Origin: Longimicrobium sp.
GTDB lineage: Bacteria; Gemmatimonadota; Gemmatimonadetes; Longimicrobiales; Longimicrobiaceae
NCBI RefSeq assembly: GCF_035474595.1
Contig: NZ_DATIND010000102.1
Location: 1 to 33,358 of the forward strand
Direction of reading: 5' to 3'
Length of the DNA: 33,358 bases
Below are positions 5,503-33,178 of this stretch, one piece after another; within the stretch, counting starts at the first letter, position 1; each line of letters begins with the position of its first letter. A program made the position numbers and the translations under genes. The notes under the pieces are model-generated. The model was not told the DNA's origin, did not search any database, and was given only the letters and a program-made list of their open reading frames with translations.

Positions 5503-6339
5503 TCACACCCGGGCGGCATCCTGAGCCATCCACGCGGCCGGCGGCACCAGCAACAGGGGGCAAGGCGTCTCACGCGCGATGGCCGCCGACACGCTGCCCA
5601 GACCCGATGACGGCGGGGCCGCGCCACGGGTTCCGACCGCCAGCAGATCGGCGGAGTCCGAGGCGGCAAGCCGCAGGATCTCCCCGGCCGGATCCGAGCC
5701 GGGACCCAGCCGCTCGTGGATTTCCACGAAGGAGGCATCCCGGGCGCGCGCGCGAGCCCGCTCGACCTCCTCGCGCACCCGCCGCACGGTGTCCTCGCCG
5801 GGGTCCGGGGTGACGTGCAGCGCGGTGAGCCGCGCCTTCCCACCCCGCGGGCGCAACGCCGACGCCCACGACAGGGCGACCGACAGCACCCCGCTGGCCG
5901 CCTCCGACAGATCGATGGCGGCGATGACCCGCTCCAGGGGCAGGAGCAGTTCCGTGGCCGTGACGAGGCACGGACACGGGGCCGTGCGAACGATGCTCGC
6001 CGCGGTGCTCCCCAGCTCTCCCGTCTGCCCGGTGCCGCGCCGGTGAGGCCCGAGAATCACCACGTCCGCACCGACACGGGCAGCCTGCTCCACGATTGCC
6101 TCCGCTGGGACGCCGCCGACGACCCGGGCGCTCTCGAGTCCGGGGGCATCCGGCGCGATTTCCCTGAACAGCTCCCTCAGCCTGGACTCGCCACCCGGGA
6201 CCGGCGCATCCGCGACGTGCACCAGGTGGAGGCTGGCCCCGGCGAGCGTCGCCAGGCGGGCAGCGGTCCGGAGCGCGAACGGGGAAGCCTCGTCGAGGTC
6301 CGTGGCGACCAGTACCGATTTCAGCGTCAGAAGCCGCAT
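5503..6339 (-). CDS. Universal stress protein, two UspA domains
   Basis: This 278-residue cytosolic protein has tandem UspA folds. Domain 1 (about 6-128) starts SVLVATDLDEAS and carries an intact ATP-binding loop, GPHRRGTGQTGELGS at 97-111, fitting the G-x2-G-x9-G-S/T rule. Domain 2 (about 136-266) starts RVIAAIDLSEAA and has a shorter GTRGAAPPSSGLGS loop at 236-249. Such tandem proteins bind ATP and help survival under starvation, oxidative or energy stress. The start at 6339 follows GGAG (in GGAGATCC) closely and places the first beta strand at the N terminus. It lies downstream of, and on the same strand as, the sigma/anti-sigma pair, separated by a repeat. Confidence 0.92.
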   Translation of the reverse strand: MRLLTLKSVLVATDLDEASPFALRTAARLATLAGASLHLVHVADAPVPGGESRLRELFREIAPDAPGLESARVVGGVPAEAIVEQAARVGADVVILGPHRRGTGQTGELGSTAASIVRTAPCPCLVTATELLLPLERVIAAIDLSEAASGVLSVALSWASALRPRGGKARLTALHVTPDPGEDTVRRVREEVERARARARDASFVEIHERLGPGSDPAGEILRLAASDSADLLAVGTRGAAPPSSGLGSVSAAIARETPCPLLLVPPAAWMAQDAARV

Positions 6340-6490
6340 TGGATCTCCAACGGGAATGCCGCGGTGGCTCAACGGGGGTGGCGCGTCGTTCCGGCAGGTT
6401 CCGGGCCCGTCCGTACGCGCACCAGGCAGCGCGGCCACGGTGCGCCCGGACCGTGGCTCATGGGGTCTCGGATCGTCTCGCGCGGCCCTG

Positions 6491-28454: not shown

Positions 28455-28512
28455 GTCATACCGGATCTGGCAATCACCCGTGCCACCAATGCCCAGAGAG
28501 ACGTCGTCCTGA
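28455..28512 (+). repeat. Repeat D (5' extension of family B)
   Basis: ACCGGATCTGGCAATCA, a variable bit, then CCAGAGAGACGTCGTCCTGAG. The same block precedes copy B7 at 30680-30736, where it runs straight into the B core. Here the B core is replaced by about 80 bp and an A copy, as if the unit was broken by insertion or deletion. Confidence 0.7.
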
Positions 28513-28592
28513 GTCGAACACCGCGCTTCGCGCGACCACGATGGATGAAAGGGCGGCGTCCTCCGGGACCGGAACTCGTCGCCGAGCCGAAC

Positions 28593-28648
28593 AGCCTCGC
28601 GCAGTTTGCGAGGCTTCCCGTAGTTGTTGCTGCGACTTCTTCAGTCGC
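28593..28648 (-). repeat. Two-hairpin dispersed repeat, copy A4
   Basis: Large stem 28593-28600 with 28608-28615, small stem 28632-28636 with 28644-28648; the small loop is TTCTTCA, three bases longer than in A1. It is followed through GCCGCGAACTTTCTA(TCTA) by repeat B6, as A1 is by B1. Confidence 0.85.
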
Positions 28649-28684
28649 CGGTGAGGGAGGCAAGGCCGCGAACTTTCTATCTAT

Positions 28685-28771
28685 TCAGGCCGGCCAACTG
28701 TCGTTGCCTCCGCACGAACGGTTGCAGGCCGAAGGATCTACAGGCGAGTCGCACGTGCGCTGCCGGATTGC
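28685..28771 (+). repeat. Dispersed repeat family B, copy B6
   Basis: CAGGCCGGCCAACTGTCGTTG, then CGGTTGCAGGCCGAAGGATC, TACAGGCGAGTCGCACGTGC, GCTGCCGGATTG. It forms a composite with A4. With D and A4 it accounts for the 471-bp gap before the response-regulator gene. Confidence 0.85.
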
Positions 28772-28802
28772 GCGATCGATCCCCGAAATCGGGATCACCA
28801 TG

Positions 28803-28892: not shown

Positions 28893-29591
28893 ATGACCGA
28901 GACGACCATCCTGGTGATCGACGACGAGCCGCAGATCCGGCGCGTGGTGCGGAACGCGCTGGAGGGCGACGCGGTGCGCGTGCTGGAGGCGGCCACCGGG
29001 CGCGAGGGAATGGACCGCGCGGCGGCGGAGCGCCCCGACCTGATCGTGCTGGACCTGGGGCTCCCGGACGTGGCGGGCGCCAGCGTGTGCGCGGAGATCC
29101 GCGGCTGGTCGTCGGCGCCCATCGTGGTGCTGTCGGCGCGGCACTCCGAGCACGAGAAGGTGGCGCTGCTGGACGCGGGGGCGGACGACTACGTGACCAA
29201 GCCGTTCAGCCCCGCCGAGCTGCGGGCCCGCGTGCGCGCCCAGCTGCGGCGCTCGCGCGCGGAGCCCCGCGCGGGCGGCGGCGGCCCGGTGGAGCTGGAC
29301 GGGCTCCGGATCGACCTGGCGCGGCGCGTCCTCTCGAAGGACGGGGGAGAGGTCCACCTCACCCCCACCGAGTGGGACCTGCTCCGCGCCTTCGTGTCGA
29401 ACGCCGGGCGCACGCTCACGCACGACCAGATCTTCCGCGCGGTGTGGGGGCGCGCCGGCGGCGGCGACCCGCAGGCCTATCTCCGCGTGCACGTGGCCAA
29501 CCTGCGCCGCAAGATCGAGCGCGACTCCGTTCGCCCCGCGCTGATCGTCACCGAGCCGGGCGTGGGCTACCGCTTCCGCGCGCTGGACTGA
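28893..29591 (+). CDS. KdpE-like OmpR-family response regulator
   Basis: This 232-residue regulator has a receiver domain (about 5-115) with acidic pocket Asp10/Asp11, phospho-acceptor Asp54 (LIVLDLGLPD), Ser81 and Lys103 (VTKPFS). The output is an OmpR/PhoB winged helix (about 135-230): LTPTEWDLLRAFVSNAGRTLTHDQIFRAVWG and YLRVHVANLRRKIE with VTEPGVGYRF. Sequence and partner (a DUF4118 kinase) suit KdpE. An in-frame ATG nine bases upstream is an alternative start. The kinase gene starts 2 nt after the stop, so the two are translationally coupled. Confidence 0.92.
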   Translation: MTETTILVIDDEPQIRRVVRNALEGDAVRVLEAATGREGMDRAAAERPDLIVLDLGLPDVAGASVCAEIRGWSSAPIVVLSARHSEHEKVALLDAGADDYVTKPFSPAELRARVRAQLRRSRAEPRAGGGGPVELDGLRIDLARRVLSKDGGEVHLTPTEWDLLRAFVSNAGRTLTHDQIFRAVWGRAGGGDPQAYLRVHVANLRRKIERDSVRPALIVTEPGVGYRFRALD

Positions 29592-29593
29592 CG

Positions 29594-30673
29594 GTGGGCG
29601 CCCGCGTCCGGGGGCTGCTGCGGTGGGCCGCCTGGCTGGCGGCGGCGGCCGCGCTCACGGCCGGCATGGCGGCGGTGCGCGCGGACCTGGAGCGGGTGCA
29701 CGTGGCCCTTGCCTACCTCCTGCTGGTGCTGGCCGCCAGCTCCAGCGGCACGCGGGCGCTGGGGCTGGTGGTGGCCGTCGTGGCGTTCCTCTGCTTCAAC
29801 TTCTTCTTCCTCCCGCCGTACCAGAACTTCGGGCTCAGCGACCGGCGCGACTGGCTGGTGCTGCTCACCTTCCTGGCGGTGGCGACGGTGGCCACGCAGC
29901 TGCTGCACCGCGCGCGCCGCCAGGCCGCCGAGGTGCAGCGGCTCTCGGCAGAGGCCGGGCGCGCCGCCGCGCTCCGCGAGGCCGACCGGCTGAAGGACGC
30001 GCTGATCGCCGCGGTCAGCCACGACCTGCGGACGCCGCTGACCACCATCAAGGCGCTGGCGCACGACCTGGGCGAGACCGGCGACGAGCGGGCGGTGACC
30101 ATCGAGGAGGAAGCCGACCGGCTGAACCGCTTCGTGGCCGACCTGCTGGATCTCTCCCGCCTGAACGCGGGGGAGCTGCGCGTGGCGCCGGAGATCGTCG
30201 CGGCCGAGGACCTGGTGGGCGCGGCGCTCCAGCGCGTCTCGGGCTCGCTGGGAGACCGGGAGATGCGGGTCGAGCTGCATCCCCACGAGCCGCTGCTGCT
30301 GGGGCGGTTCGATTTCGTGCAGTCGCTGCGTGTGCTCGTGAACCTGCTGGAGAACGCGCACAAGTACGCGCCCGCGGCCACGCCGATCGAGCTCTCCGTC
30401 TCGCGCGACGGCGGCCGCCTCGTCTTCCGCGTGGCGGACCGCGGCCCCGGCGTGCCGGAGGACGAGCGCGAGCGCATCTTCCACCCCTTCTACCGCCGTC
30501 CGCAGGGCGAGGCGGATGCCGGGGGCGCGGGGCTGGGCCTCTCCATCTCCCGCCGCCTGGCCGAGGCGCAGGGCGGCACGCTCGCCTTCGAGCCGCGGCC
30601 GGGCGGCGGAAGCGTGTTCGTCTTCACCCTCCCCTCCGCCGACCTCGCCGATCCCGCCACCCTGCCGGGGTGA
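29594..30673 (+). CDS. KdpD-like sensor histidine kinase lacking the N-terminal KdpD and USP domains
   Basis: This 359-residue membrane kinase has four hydrophobic helices near 7-104 forming a DUF4118 sensor region (VALAYLLLVLAASSSGTRALGLVVAVVAFLCFNFFFLPPY). The HisKA helix holds His143 (AAVSHDLRTPLTTIKALAHDL). The ATPase has N box NLLENAHKYAP, G1 DRGPGVP, F box IFHPFYR and G2 GAGLGLSI. Full KdpD (about 900 residues) begins with a KdpD domain and USP-like domain; both are absent. The start is GTG at 29594, 2 nt past the regulator stop, with no clear Shine-Dalgarno, consistent with coupling. It probably senses potassium or envelope stress and phosphorylates the 28893 product. Confidence 0.9.
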   Translation: MGARVRGLLRWAAWLAAAAALTAGMAAVRADLERVHVALAYLLLVLAASSSGTRALGLVVAVVAFLCFNFFFLPPYQNFGLSDRRDWLVLLTFLAVATVATQLLHRARRQAAEVQRLSAEAGRAAALREADRLKDALIAAVSHDLRTPLTTIKALAHDLGETGDERAVTIEEEADRLNRFVADLLDLSRLNAGELRVAPEIVAAEDLVGAALQRVSGSLGDREMRVELHPHEPLLLGRFDFVQSLRVLVNLLENAHKYAPAATPIELSVSRDGGRLVFRVADRGPGVPEDERERIFHPFYRRPQGEADAGGAGLGLSISRRLAEAQGGTLAFEPRPGGGSVFVFTLPSADLADPATLPG

Positions 30674-30679
30674 TGTCTC

Positions 30680-30822
30680 ACACCGGATCTGGCAATCATC
30701 TCCCTGCTACAAACGCCACAGAGAGACGTCGTCCTGAGGCCGGGCCACACCGTCGTTGCCTTCCGCACGAGCGGTTGAAGGCCGAAGGATCCATAGGCGA
30801 GGTCGCACGTGCGCTTCCAGAT
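30680..30822 (+). repeat. Dispersed repeat family B, copy B7 with 5' extension D
   Basis: ACCGGATCTGGCAATCA, GCCACAGAGAGACGTCGTCC, TGAGGCCGGGCCACACCGTC, GGTTGAAGGCCGAAGGATCC, ATAGGCGAGGTCGCACGTGC. It shows that D and B belong to one longer unit. It is inverted relative to B8, 85 bp away, so the pair could fold into a long hairpin or be substrates for inversion. Confidence 0.85.
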
Positions 30823-30907
30823 TGCACGATTCGATCTTCTGATCCATAGCCGCAGCATCGTGTCTCGGCTGATGCGCTGATCCTTCCGACAGATTGAACG
30901 GTGAGGT

Positions 30908-31001
30908 CCGGCAGCGCACGTGCGTGAGCGGTTATAGATCCTTCGGCCTGCCAGCACTGGTGTAGACAAAATTTCGTCATGGCCGGCCTCAGGATGACGT
31001 C
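30908..31001 (-). repeat. Dispersed repeat family B, copy B8
   Basis: Minus strand: GACGTCATCCTGAGGCCGGC, GGCAGGCCGAAGGATCTAT, ACGCACGTGCGCTGCCGGAC. It faces B7. Together with the microsatellite, B7 and B8 fill the 519-bp gap between the kinase and the permease; no gene is seen there. Confidence 0.85.
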
Positions 31002-31026
31002 TATCCGGCATCACGCGTTTCATCCG

Positions 31027-31074
31027 ATCTCCATCTCCATCTCCATCTCCATCCCCATCTCCATCTCCATCTAT
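31027..31074 (+). repeat. Hexanucleotide microsatellite (ATCTCC)n
   Basis: Seven units of ATCTCC, one with a single change (ATCCCC), then a decayed ATCTAT. It lies about 120 bp before the permease start, outside coding sequence. A milder version (CATCTCC...CATCATCTCC) lies before uvrA2 near 15205-15235. Copy number could vary by slippage. Confidence 0.9.
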
Positions 31075-31192
31075 CTCATCTCCCAGTCTTTACGACTCCT
31101 TCACGCTGGACGGACGGATCTTTGTGCCTCCTTCACGGGACCGTCACGATCTTCCCGAATTTCGTGGCGAATGGACCCGGGGCACCGAGGGA

Positions 31193-33178
31193 ATGGAGAC
31201 CACGAGACGCAAGCGGATGGCGCGCGCGGTGCTGGGGGAGCCGCGCGACGTGCGGGACCCGCGGACCTACCACAACATCTCGCTGATCGCGCTGCTGGCG
31301 TGGGTGGGGCTGGGCGCGGACGGGCTTTCGTCGTCGGCGTACGGGCCCGACGAGGCGTTCCGCGCGCTGGGGCCGCACGCGTACCTGGCGGTGGCGCTGG
31401 CCGGGGCCACGGCCGTGACCGTGCTGGTCATCTCCATCGCCTATTCGCAGATCATCCGCCGCTTCCCGTTCGGCGGCGGCGGGTACGTGGTGGCCAGCCA
31501 GCTGCTGGGCGCCCGCTGGGGCGTGGTGTCGGGGGCGGCGCTGCTGGTGGATTACGTGCTGACCATCTCCGTGTCCATCGCCAGCGGCGCCGACCAGGTG
31601 TTCAGCGTGCTCCCGCCCGCGTGGCACCGCTGGAAGCTGGCGGCCGCGGGCCTCGTCATCCTCCTGCTGGTGGTGCTCAACCTGCGCGGGGTGAAGGAGT
31701 CGGTGAGCATCCTGGCGCCGGTGTTCGCCGCGTTCCTGCTGATGCACGCGGTGCTGATCGCGGGCGGGCTGGCCACGCACGCGGGCGAGGTGCCGCGGGT
31801 GGCGCGCGAGGTGTCGGGCGGGTTCCGGCAGGGGCTGGGCACGCTGGGCGCCGTGGGGCTGTTCGCCGTGTTCCTGCGCGCGTACTCGATGGGGGCGGGC
31901 ACCTACACGGGAATCGAGGCGGTGAGCAACGGGCTGCAGATCATGCGCGAGCCCCGGGTGCGGACGGCCACGCGGACGATGGTTTACATGGCCGTGTCCC
32001 TCGCGGCCACGGCCAGCGGAATCCTGCTGCTGTACCTGCTTTTCCGGGTGGCGCCCGTGGAGGGGAAGACGCTGAACGCGGTGCTGCTGGAGCGCTTCGC
32101 GGGGGCGTGGCGGCTGGGCGGGGTGAACGTGGGGTACGGCTTCGTGGCCTTCACGCTGGCCACCGAGGCGGCGCTCCTGTTCGTGGCGGCGCAGGCGGGG
32201 TTCATCGACGGGCCGCGGGTGATGAGCAACATGGCCGCCGACCGCTGGCTTCCGCATCGCTTCGCCCAGCTCTCCGACCGGCTGACGATTCAGGACGGTG
32301 TGCTGCTGATGGGCGGCGCGGCCATCGCCACGCTGGTCTACACGAGGGGGGACATCACCCGGCTGGTGACGATGTACTCCATCAACGTCTTCGTCACCTT
32401 CTCGCTCTCGCAGCTGGGGATGGTGCGCTACTGGCTGCGCACCCGCGGCGGGCACCGCGGACGTGGGCTGGCCATCCACGGCGTGGCGCTGGCGCTGTGC
32501 GCGGGGATCCTGGCCGGGGTGCTGTACGAGAAGTTCGAGGTCGGGGGATGGGTGACGGTGGCGGTCACCGGCGCCGTGGTGGGCCTCTGCCTGGCGGTGC
32601 GCCGCCACTACGACCGCGTACGCGAGGGTTTCCGGCGGCTGGACGAGGTGATGGGCGGCCTGCCCGCGGCGTACGACGGCCCGCCGAAGCCGCTGGACCC
32701 GAAGGCGCCCACGGCGGTGCTCCTGGTGGGCGGCTACGGCGGGCTGGGGATCCACGCGCTGCTCTCGGTGCAGCGGCTCTTTCCGCGGCACTTCGGGAAC
32801 TTCGTGTTCGTGTCGGTGGGCGTGATCGACGCGGCGGCGATGAAGGGGGTGGACGAGGTGGACCGCGTGCGCGAGCGGACGGAGGCGGCGCTGCGGGGCT
32901 ACGTGGAGCTGGCCCGCGGGCTGGGGCTGCCGGCGGAGTATCGGATGCGCGTGGGAACGGAGGCGGTGAGCGAAGCCGAGGCGCTGTGCGCCGGGATCGC
33001 GAAGGAGTTCCCGCGCTCCATCTTCTTCATGGGCAAGCTGATCTCGCAGCGCGAGGGGTTCTTCTTCCGCATGCTGCACAACAACACGGCGGACCAGCTC
33101 CAGCGCCGCCTGCAGTTCGCGGGGATGAACGCCATGCTCCTCCCCGTCCGCGCGATGGAGCTGCCGCGGGCGGGGTGA
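31193..33178 (+). CDS. KimA-like APC superfamily potassium permease
   Basis: This 661-residue protein has about 12 transmembrane helices to about residue 480, then a cytosolic domain of about 180 residues (GGYGGLGIHALLSVQRLF, FVFVSVGVIDAAAM). The first helix GADGLSSSAYGPDEAF gives Asp43 and Tyr50, the same D-x6-Y spacing as the potassium-site Asp36 and Tyr43 that I recall from KimA (YdaO). Thr239-x-x-Glu242 (TGIEAVSNG) matches the helix 6 T-x-x-E. FPFGGGGYVVASQLLG and ALLVDYVLTISVSI are also KimA-like. I therefore favour proton-coupled potassium import over amino-acid transport, although its general annotation would be 'APC family permease'. ATG at 31193 has GAGGGA upstream; a GTG at 31124 would add a poorly conserved leader. 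It lies 519 bp after the KdpE/KdpD-like pair on the same strand. Confidence 0.86.
   Translation: METTRRKRMARAVLGEPRDVRDPRTYHNISLIALLAWVGLGADGLSSSAYGPDEAFRALGPHAYLAVALAGATAVTVLVISIAYSQIIRRFPFGGGGYVVASQLLGARWGVVSGAALLVDYVLTISVSIASGADQVFSVLPPAWHRWKLAAAGLVILLLVVLNLRGVKESVSILAPVFAAFLLMHAVLIAGGLATHAGEVPRVAREVSGGFRQGLGTLGAVGLFAVFLRAYSMGAGTYTGIEAVSNGLQIMREPRVRTATRTMVYMAVSLAATASGILLLYLLFRVAPVEGKTLNAVLLERFAGAWRLGGVNVGYGFVAFTLATEAALLFVAAQAGFIDGPRVMSNMAADRWLPHRFAQLSDRLTIQDGVLLMGGAAIATLVYTRGDITRLVTMYSINVFVTFSLSQLGMVRYWLRTRGGHRGRGLAIHGVALALCAGILAGVLYEKFEVGGWVTVAVTGAVVGLCLAVRRHYDRVREGFRRLDEVMGGLPAAYDGPPKPLDPKAPTAVLLVGGYGGLGIHALLSVQRLFPRHFGNFVFVSVGVIDAAAMKGVDEVDRVRERTEAALRGYVELARGLGLPAEYRMRVGTEAVSEAEALCAGIAKEFPRSIFFMGKLISQREGFFFRMLHNNTADQLQRRLQFAGMNAMLLPVRAMELPRAG

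Follow-up and report, generated by a model that had tools for sequence, protein, structure and literature searches.

In Escherichia coli, the response regulator (RR) KdpE binds 6-bp direct repeats, TTTATA and TTTACA, placed 5 bp apart within a 21-bp minimal fragment of the layout 3+6+5+6+1, and contacts DNA through residues R193, R200 and T215 (PMC3264566). The KdpD domain phosphorylates KdpB, a component of the KdpFABC potassium pump (PMC11018627). KdpD can also be divided between genes, as described for DR_B0081/0082/0088 of Deinococcus radiodurans (PMC5716572) and for pairs of a KdpD/Usp ASK and a TM/GAF/DHpCA histidine kinase (HK) in a species set limited to annotated Kdp systems (PMC11018627). 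A different importer, KimA of Bacillus subtilis, uses D36, Y43, T230 and Y377 as K+ ligands (PMC10284832), and its D36, D117 and E233 match residues that are essential in E. coli Kup (PMC6994465). Here, we describe a locus of Longimicrobium sp. in which a KdpE-like RR gene and an HK gene precede the gene of a KimA-like permease. It lies in a stretch of 33,358 nucleotides (the window), which is the entire contig C102 of a 6.57-Mb genome (163 contigs, 96.85% complete; genome code G000). The comparisons below make it quite probable that the locus encodes a KdpDE-type K+ circuit that has a KimA-like K+/H+ symporter as its output instead of KdpFABC.

The RR, HK and permease genes are open plus-strand frames at 28893-33178, as given in a first-pass annotation of this DNA, which had also called the regulator and kinase KdpE/KdpD-like. 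Database comparisons agree with that assignment. Both domains of the RR (Response_reg and Trans_reg_C) score over their Pfam cut-offs, and its top NCBIfam model is KdpE (229.5 bits, best of 96 models). Its top PDB sequence matches are also KdpE, with chain 4kny at E 2.8e-62 and the near-identical 6lgq at 1.2e-62, followed by RegX3 at 3.1e-42. The three DNA-contact residues of KdpE are conserved in an alignment to 4kny, in which a two-residue numbering offset was read by eye. The kinase begins with a GTG codon two bases past the RR stop and contains DUF4118 followed by HisKA and HATPase domains, with no Pfam match to KdpD (PF02702), Usp or GAF. It has no GAF-sized insert; the kinase of a same-genus kdp locus (L129) has ~154 residues with weak GAF matches.

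The kinase had been said to have lost its N-terminal KdpD/USP domains. Their absence stands, while a loss by this kinase itself does not, because KdpD is mostly split in the phylum. In most kdp loci examined in the comparison set of 249 Gemmatimonadota genomes, KdpD is made up of two proteins, a KdpD/Usp protein of 400 residues and a DUF4118 kinase, and the KdpD-N/Usp gene of these split loci stands inside the kdp locus; KdpD is fused in five kdp loci. Local truncation of the kinase by deletion was rejected on this ground. A tie between GAF loss and a KimA partner was rejected as well, the clade-A counts being 6 of 13 for kinases adjacent to KimA and 5 of 19 for those adjacent to kdp (Fisher p 0.28; two kdp rows were cut fragments, and five kdp rows with no DUF4118 match and ten clade-B rows were left out).

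The only PDB sequence matches of the permease at E up to 0.01 are KimA (4.2e-61) and a spurious zinc-finger protein (0.005). Its structural model (predicted local distance difference test score, pLDDT, 78.2; predicted template modelling score, pTM, 0.77) aligns with KimA 8b71 at Z 48.4 over model residues 37-655, including the C-terminal domain, with a root-mean-square deviation (rmsd) of 12.9. The membrane part aligns with KimA 6s3k at Z 45.2 and an rmsd of 2.4 over 425 residues. KimA residues D36, Y43, D117, T121, S125, T230, E233 and Y377 correspond to D43, Y50, D120, T124, S128, T239, E242 and Y395 of the permease; the Asp/Tyr and T-x-x-E positions noticed in the first pass (D43, Y50, T239 and E242) are among them. 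We take T121 and S125 to have roles in the ion path. All eight ion-path residues are invariant across 15 aligned permeases (columns read by eye), and sequence and model together predict that the protein is a KimA-like K+/H+ importer.

We refer to the window-type family as PERM1 and to a second KimA-like family of the phylum, which matches KimA end to end at E 2e-142, as PERM2. In the cyclic di-AMP (c-di-AMP) pocket of the permease, HN (H579, N580) is kept, and R337, Q581 and S582 are replaced by His, Asn and Thr, respectively. The Q581 position is Glu in most relatives of the permease, with the C-terminal columns resting on a PERM1-PERM2 alignment read by eye. A diadenylate cyclase gene is present in the genome, and no c-di-AMP riboswitch was found 5' of the permease in the window at the Rfam gathering threshold.

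Upstream regions showed a direct repeat with an 11-bp period. Expectation maximisation on 17 promoters, which included neither the window nor any kdpA promoter (one PERM2 promoter lies in a kdp locus), yielded a 21-bp motif, ATC-TTTGCG-AATTC-TTTACG-C, with a score of 203 versus 60.5, 68.5 and 64.9 in three shuffled sets; the real set was run from 160 starts and each shuffled set from 50. In the 33-kb window, the top two sites of this matrix lie just 5' of the permease (Table 1) and score 22.5 and 19.5 bits, the next site scoring 8.7. A second matrix was learned from just 13 PERM2/Kup promoters, none of a PERM1 gene and none from the family of the window; it ranks the same two boxes first and second (22.6 and 20.3 bits; next 8.6). 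Over 200 resampled windows this matrix peaked at 19.3 bits, and its maximum over 2000 resampled intergenic regions, 21.4, stayed below 22.6. The boxes stand 32 bp apart, each laid out as 6-5-6 direct repeats (3+6+5+6+1); they have the geometry of the E. coli KdpE site and are predicted operators. At held-out kdp loci the locus-best site was 5' of kdpA or the RR gene in 9 of 11 cases, and at other PERM1 loci it was 5' of PERM1 in four of five. Genes for KdpFABC, KimA-type importers and Kup that adjoin related kinases likewise have boxes of this kind upstream.

Comparison of promoters suggests that the boxes track this group of kinases and not the permease. Six PERM1 loci that have no adjacent RR-HK pair (L036, L038, L042, L046, L047 and L049) reach no more than 4.3 bits over the 330 bp 5' of the gene; this control covers loci with the promoter on the contig (L047 has two copies, and L045, with its promoter off the contig, was dropped). 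L037, the second piece of the G243 gene, also has its promoter off the contig and was left out of the box count. In G224, where the pair is on another contig, PERM1 is preceded by two boxes 32 bp apart, with 24.4 and 23.7 bits. In G010, a listed pair of the K+-linked kinase group adjoins PERM1. Some 20 kb away lies a kdp operon for which the 20 kb fetched show no RR-HK pair, and boxes occur at the promoters of both PERM1 and kdp. Within the family of the window, tandem boxes and a close match to the kinase accompany kdp or PERM1: all are present in G000, G032, G224 and G243, and all are absent from G180, G052 and G208. The Kup genes of the window genome (L278) have no box and would therefore lie outside the regulon.

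Searches of the whole genome returned no match to KdpA, with kdpB and kdpC not searched separately, and none to the KdpD N-domain (PF02702) or TrkH. The absence of kdpFABC stated in the first pass is thereby upheld for KdpA, and no other KdpD N-domain was found either. Elsewhere in the phylum, KdpA was found in 42 of the 249 genomes and PF02702 above its cut-off in 40, with three more below it. The two overlap in 39 genomes; the fortieth PF02702 genome (G024) has kdpB and kdpC at a contig end, and G022, G168 and G232 have KdpA without PF02702. Judged by these matches, the KdpD-N/Usp gene goes with kdpFABC and is missing together with the pump in the window genome. Its absence makes sense where the pump is missing, because the KdpD domain phosphorylates KdpB and no pump was found. 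Two genomes of the same family, G224 and G243, also have PERM1 and no KdpA. KimA-like matches occur in 46 genomes, 30 of which have neither KdpA nor PF02702; the other 16 have PF02702, all with kdp genes. The proposed rewired circuit, with a KimA-like importer under a KdpDE-type pair in a genome without KdpA, is well supported for this locus by the promoter boxes, the absence of KdpA and a sister kinase in a kdp operon (see below); replacement of the pump fails as a general rule, since KimA-like and kdp genes coexist in those 16 genomes. The simplest account is a KdpDE-type circuit in which a KimA-like importer has taken the place of the pump or, in relatives, stands alongside it.

In the proposed circuit, low external K+ would be sensed by the membrane (DUF4118) part of the kinase, which would then phosphorylate the KdpE-like RR. 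The RR would bind the two tandem 21-bp boxes 32 bp apart 5' of the permease gene and switch it on, and the permease would import K+ together with protons. The KdpD-N/Usp protein, whose KdpD domain in E. coli phosphorylates and shuts off the pump subunit KdpB, would not be needed without the pump, hence its absence.

Long PERM1 matches (E at most 1e-149) occur in 18 genomes of the phylum, and an RR-HK pair lies within ~2 kb in ten of these (the window genome, G071, G010, G142, G243, G155, G049, G008, G228 and G214), in layouts that vary from co-directional to divergent to HK before RR. Because the pair adjoins the permease in 10 of 18 genomes, the RR-HK-permease grouping is not due to chance. 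G205 and G138 hold short PERM1 pieces only, and L047 (G038) contains two tandem PERM1 genes, 54% and 53% identical to the window permease. PERM2 also stands beside such a pair (G144, G242, G177, G065, G213, G137, G115 and G202) and in or next to kdp loci (G245, G115, G169 and G027); PERM2 loci were fetched in part, and several of the fetched ones have neither a pair nor a kdp locus. At L134 (G105), a divergent kdpC-kdpA pair (45-47% identity) adjoins a distant PERM2 (39%).

In a tree of 86 kinase cores, the window kinase is the sister of that of G032 (support 95/88), a genome of the same genus in which the RR-HK pair heads the kdp locus (L129) and no KimA-like gene was found. The tree covers cores only and omits places with E beyond ~1e-60 (e.g., G170:C362, G019:C1:3281991 and G123:C41); many kdp kinase rows entered through the KdpA search, and its counts are not prevalence figures. 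In a clade of 30 kinases, made up of 27 and a further 3 at contig edges (support 80/89, not starred), kdpA, KimA and Kup are all missing from the fetched flanks. A neighbor of ~440 residues, which resembles an outer-membrane efflux factor, is common to nine loci of this clade (within L198-L237). Among the other 56 kinases, the neighbors are kdp genes for 29, KimA-like genes for 18 and Kup for 4; 1 lies at a contig edge and 4 adjoin none of these. Kinases with kdp and with KimA-like neighbors are intermingled in the tree. Ten kinases form a second deep clade, in which five are fused KdpDs of 873-920 residues at kdp and the other five are PERM1-associated kinases of 511-557 residues; a domain scan found the KdpD domain in L142 and not in L044. 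This clade has a different box, CAATCCTGATGGAATCTTGAT, which was learned from its five PERM1 promoters and is the best site 5' of kdpA in all four testable loci (L140, L142, L154 and, weakly, L144; L141 and L143 lack the kdpA-upstream stretch), two of which again hold pairs 32 bp apart. Because two kinase clades each pair with KimA-like genes, the tree indicates that the kinase link to these genes arose or was kept at least twice, and other members of the phylum seem to have made similar regulator-importer pairings more than once.

Beyond the phylum, a set with one genome per species contained at least 572 PERM1 relatives, of which 80 loci were kept, a few of them from Gemmatimonadota. Among the matches listed, these 80 loci have kdp within 6 kb in 14 cases, a KdpDE-like pair in 14, Kup in 6 and any of these in 24; where at least 5 kb was available on both sides, 16 of 42 were near one of the three. 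The best box of the locus lay within 330 bp 5' of PERM1 in 19 of the 80, again among the matches listed, versus 2.7 expected by length. Anaeromyxobacter, Geomonas and Trichlorobacter are among the hosts, and PERM1 is found beside kdp genes in Trichlorobacter thiogenes, Geomonas silvestris and Anaeromyxobacter sp. PSR-1.

A search of the 249 genomes for two boxes 32 bp apart, with up to 2 mismatches, gave 26 matches in 21 genomes, versus 2 with a reversed control pattern. Of the 26, 21 fall at loci for K+ transport, at genes adjoining a kinase of this type or at the gene of a lipoprotein associated with kdp. By neighbor, these are kdpA (5; in G032 a lipoprotein gene stands between box and kdpA), the RR start of such loci (3), PERM1 (3), PERM2 (4), Kup (2), a porin-like gene beside a two-component system (TCS) of this type (2; in G123 no transporter gene was seen) and the lipoprotein (2). 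The window genome has only two matches, at the permease promoter and at C43:27461-27509. The latter boxes (L280 4461-4513) precede the gene of a lipoprotein-like protein of 163 residues (L280 3931-4419, minus strand), which has no Pfam family and whose label comes from an N-terminus read by eye. Related proteins are encoded within kdp loci in G032, G012, G119 and G245 and, in G243, immediately 3' of PERM1 (L037 17846-18262).

Several further observations concern these loci. A BBP2 (OmpL-like) porin gene lies inside kdp loci (L128 9680-10840), and the porin-like genes adjoining the TCS in G213 and G123 carry tandem boxes (L272/L378; L377); a BBP2-type porin is a possible outer-membrane partner of K+ uptake. 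The product of orfX, with 317 residues and no Pfam match, is encoded 3' of the KdpD-N gene in many kdp loci examined (L128 12079-13032). G115 carries two copies of PERM2 (L131 and L167), one following its kdp genes and the other accompanied by a separate RR-HK pair; both have tandem boxes. At L370 (G215:C50:13174-13222), tandem boxes with one mismatch precede a gene whose product has 225 residues; the nearest 1.5 kb contain no K+ gene.

A wider interpretation, which we offer tentatively and rate at slightly less than an even chance, is that KdpDE serves as an exchangeable regulator of K+ acquisition. One code, tandem TTYRYG-N5-TTYRYG sites 32-33 bp apart, would drive KdpFABC, two KimA subfamilies or Kup, together with a BBP2-type porin and an undescribed lipoprotein. 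These would form an envelope-spanning K+ module in which the inner-membrane transporter was swapped repeatedly while the regulator and boxes were kept. If so, the tandem-code regulon of the window genome would consist of the KimA-like gene and the C43 lipoprotein gene, the latter encoding a new accessory factor of K+ uptake.

Three other explanations of the locus were weighed. The permease could be an ordinary amino-acid permease of the APC superfamily that stands by chance beside a KdpDE-like pair. Pfam assigns it AA_permease_2 only, and the APC fold is common to amino-acid transporters, several of which resemble the model (ApcT Z 35.7, BasC 34.5 and AdiC 34.0). KimA, however, is its only credible PDB sequence match and by a wide margin its best structural one, the ion-path residues do not vary, KdpE-type boxes occupy the promoter, and 24 of the 80 loci listed across phyla have kdp, a KdpDE-like pair or Kup nearby, which together render this explanation very unlikely. 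Alternatively, the permease imports K+, the adjacent pair regulates other genes, and the boxes belong to another regulator of the OmpR family. The clade of 30 kinases with no kdpA, KimA or Kup in their fetched flanks favors this, in that the TCS family evidently serves other functions as well. We nevertheless regard it as unlikely, since the boxes follow the kinase group and not the permease, as the six unpaired loci and G224 illustrate, and since the second kinase clade (L039, L040, L041, L044 and L048) shares its different box with kdp promoters of its own kind.

It could also be that kdpFABC was lost in an assembly gap, in which case there was no rewiring and the permease simply adds to a normal Kdp regulon. 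With 163 contigs and 96.85% completeness, the assembly could, at a low probability, have missed a kdp operon, and kdp and KimA-like genes do coexist in 16 of the 46 KimA-bearing genomes. Against this, KdpA and KdpD-N, which are two separate genes, are both missing, the same-family genomes G224 and G243 repeat the combination of PERM1 and no KdpA, and the kind of RR-HK pair that heads the same-genus kdp locus stands before the permease in the window. An assembly gap is accordingly a most improbable explanation.

Several results weigh against the reading of the locus as a KdpDE-type circuit with a KimA-like output. The KdpE score of the RR falls under the equivalog cut-off of 325, and the protein is therefore called KdpE-like. 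Eight of the 18 genomes with long PERM1 matches have no pair on the contig (G224, G114, G002, G018, G119, G041, G038 and G043; the G119 contig ends at the start of the PERM1 gene), and among the seven such orthologs with the promoter on the contig, boxes were found only in G224. The held-out test of the boxes failed at kdp loci L133 and L146, and at the held-out PERM1 locus L035 the box ranks second. Common descent of the promoters accounts for part of the box signal. Four of the 26 tandem-box matches lie inside one and the same unrelated coding gene, presumably rbfA, and one (G215) is unclear. Some tandem-box promoters also served in motif learning (e.g., G243, G202, G065 and G071), which leaves the tandem-box count not wholly independent. 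The window genome also has two Kup genes, and the permease is for this reason likely not the sole K+ route. Finally, the HK-permease gap of 519 bp contains copies of a repeated element that is also found upstream of the RR gene; the permease is therefore probably transcribed separately and not with the RR-HK pair, an arrangement that fits the position of the KdpE-type boxes immediately 5' of the permease.

Table 1. Features of the potassium locus and its flanks in the window.
Feature	Position	Strand	Basis
KdpE-like response regulator (receiver + winged helix)	28893..29591	+	Pfam, NCBIfam, PDB sequence match
DUF4118-HisKA-HATPase sensor kinase, counterpart of the C-terminal half of a split KdpD, no GAF-sized insert	29594..30673	+	Pfam, start codon, GAF gap, tree
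Predicted KdpE-type box 1, GTC-TTTACG-ACTCC-TTCACG-C	31086..31106	+	Top position weight matrix (PWM) site of the window, 22.5/22.6 bits (two training sets without the window)
Predicted KdpE-type box 2, ATC-TTTGTG-CCTCC-TTCACG-G	31118..31138	+	Second PWM site, 19.5/20.3 bits; repeat pair D9
Predicted KimA-like (KUP-family) permease, 661 aa, APC-fold membrane part + C-terminal cytosolic domain	31193..33178	+	PDB sequence, residues, model
Repeated element, copy 5' of the RR gene	28456..28776	+	Repeat families D2, D3, D5, D6
Repeated element, direct copy between HK and permease promoter	30678..30830	+	Repeat families D2, D3, D5, D6
Repeated element, partial inverted copies	30891..31005	-	Repeat families I1, I3, I4, I6

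Copies of the repeated element thus lie on both flanks of the RR-HK pair, one of them between the kinase and the permease promoter. A tandem array of the hexamer ATCTCC/ATCCCC at 31027-31072, just 5' of the KdpE-type boxes, is a possible length-variable promoter element. Neither a sigma-70 promoter nor a terminator was found at 30500-31400. Elsewhere in the window, a universal stress protein with two matched Usp stretches is encoded at 5506-6342 on the minus strand; as far as tested, it is unconnected to the Usp domain of KdpD.

KdpDE is a textbook example of a sensor tied to one pump, and here related pairs and one operator code appear to serve KdpFABC, KimA-like importers and Kup. In a phylum with such pairings it becomes testable what KdpD-type kinases sense, as the window kinase consists of the membrane part without GAF, Usp or KdpD-N, and also whether KdpD-N is purely a KdpB serine kinase, given its presence or absence with the pump. 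A gene that Pfam sees as an amino-acid permease only, and that is present in many phyla, becomes a predicted K+ importer, and the lipoprotein and porin are pointed to as unstudied partners of K+ uptake.

Among described systems, the KimA-type genes of Enterococcus faecalis and Streptomyces (PMC9945522, PMC10117811) are similar in being importers in genomes that possibly also hold KdpDE; the available text of these sources does not describe control of KimA by KdpDE, and searches of an open-access library showed no report of a KimA-type gene controlled by KdpDE. As in split KdpD systems, where sensor kinase and KdpD-N/Usp are on separate genes (PMC5716572, PMC11018627), and as in D. radiodurans in particular, where the RR gene also stands beside the kinase gene (PMC5716572), the window has a kinase of the separate type. 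Those systems were studied with the pump, whereas the window genome has neither KdpA nor KdpD-N.

B. subtilis KimA (6s3k, 8b70 and 8b71; PMC6994465, PMC10284832) shares with the window permease the APC/KUP fold and a cytosolic C-terminal domain, and the ion-path residues and the Y118 and N237 positions are common to both. They differ in R337 of the c-di-AMP pocket, which is His in the window permease, and in control by the c-di-AMP ydaO riboswitch, described for KimA (PMC11018627) and not found in the window. The likeness to E. coli KdpDE-kdpFABC lies in the KdpE-like RR and the DUF4118 plus HisKA/HATPase core of the kinase. Unlike E. coli KdpD, the window kinase has no KdpD, Usp or GAF domain, and the predicted output is a KimA-like permease, with no pump found. 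The operators would differ from the E. coli KdpE site as well, with two tandem boxes 32 bp apart and half-sites of the form TTYRYG in place of TTTAYA.

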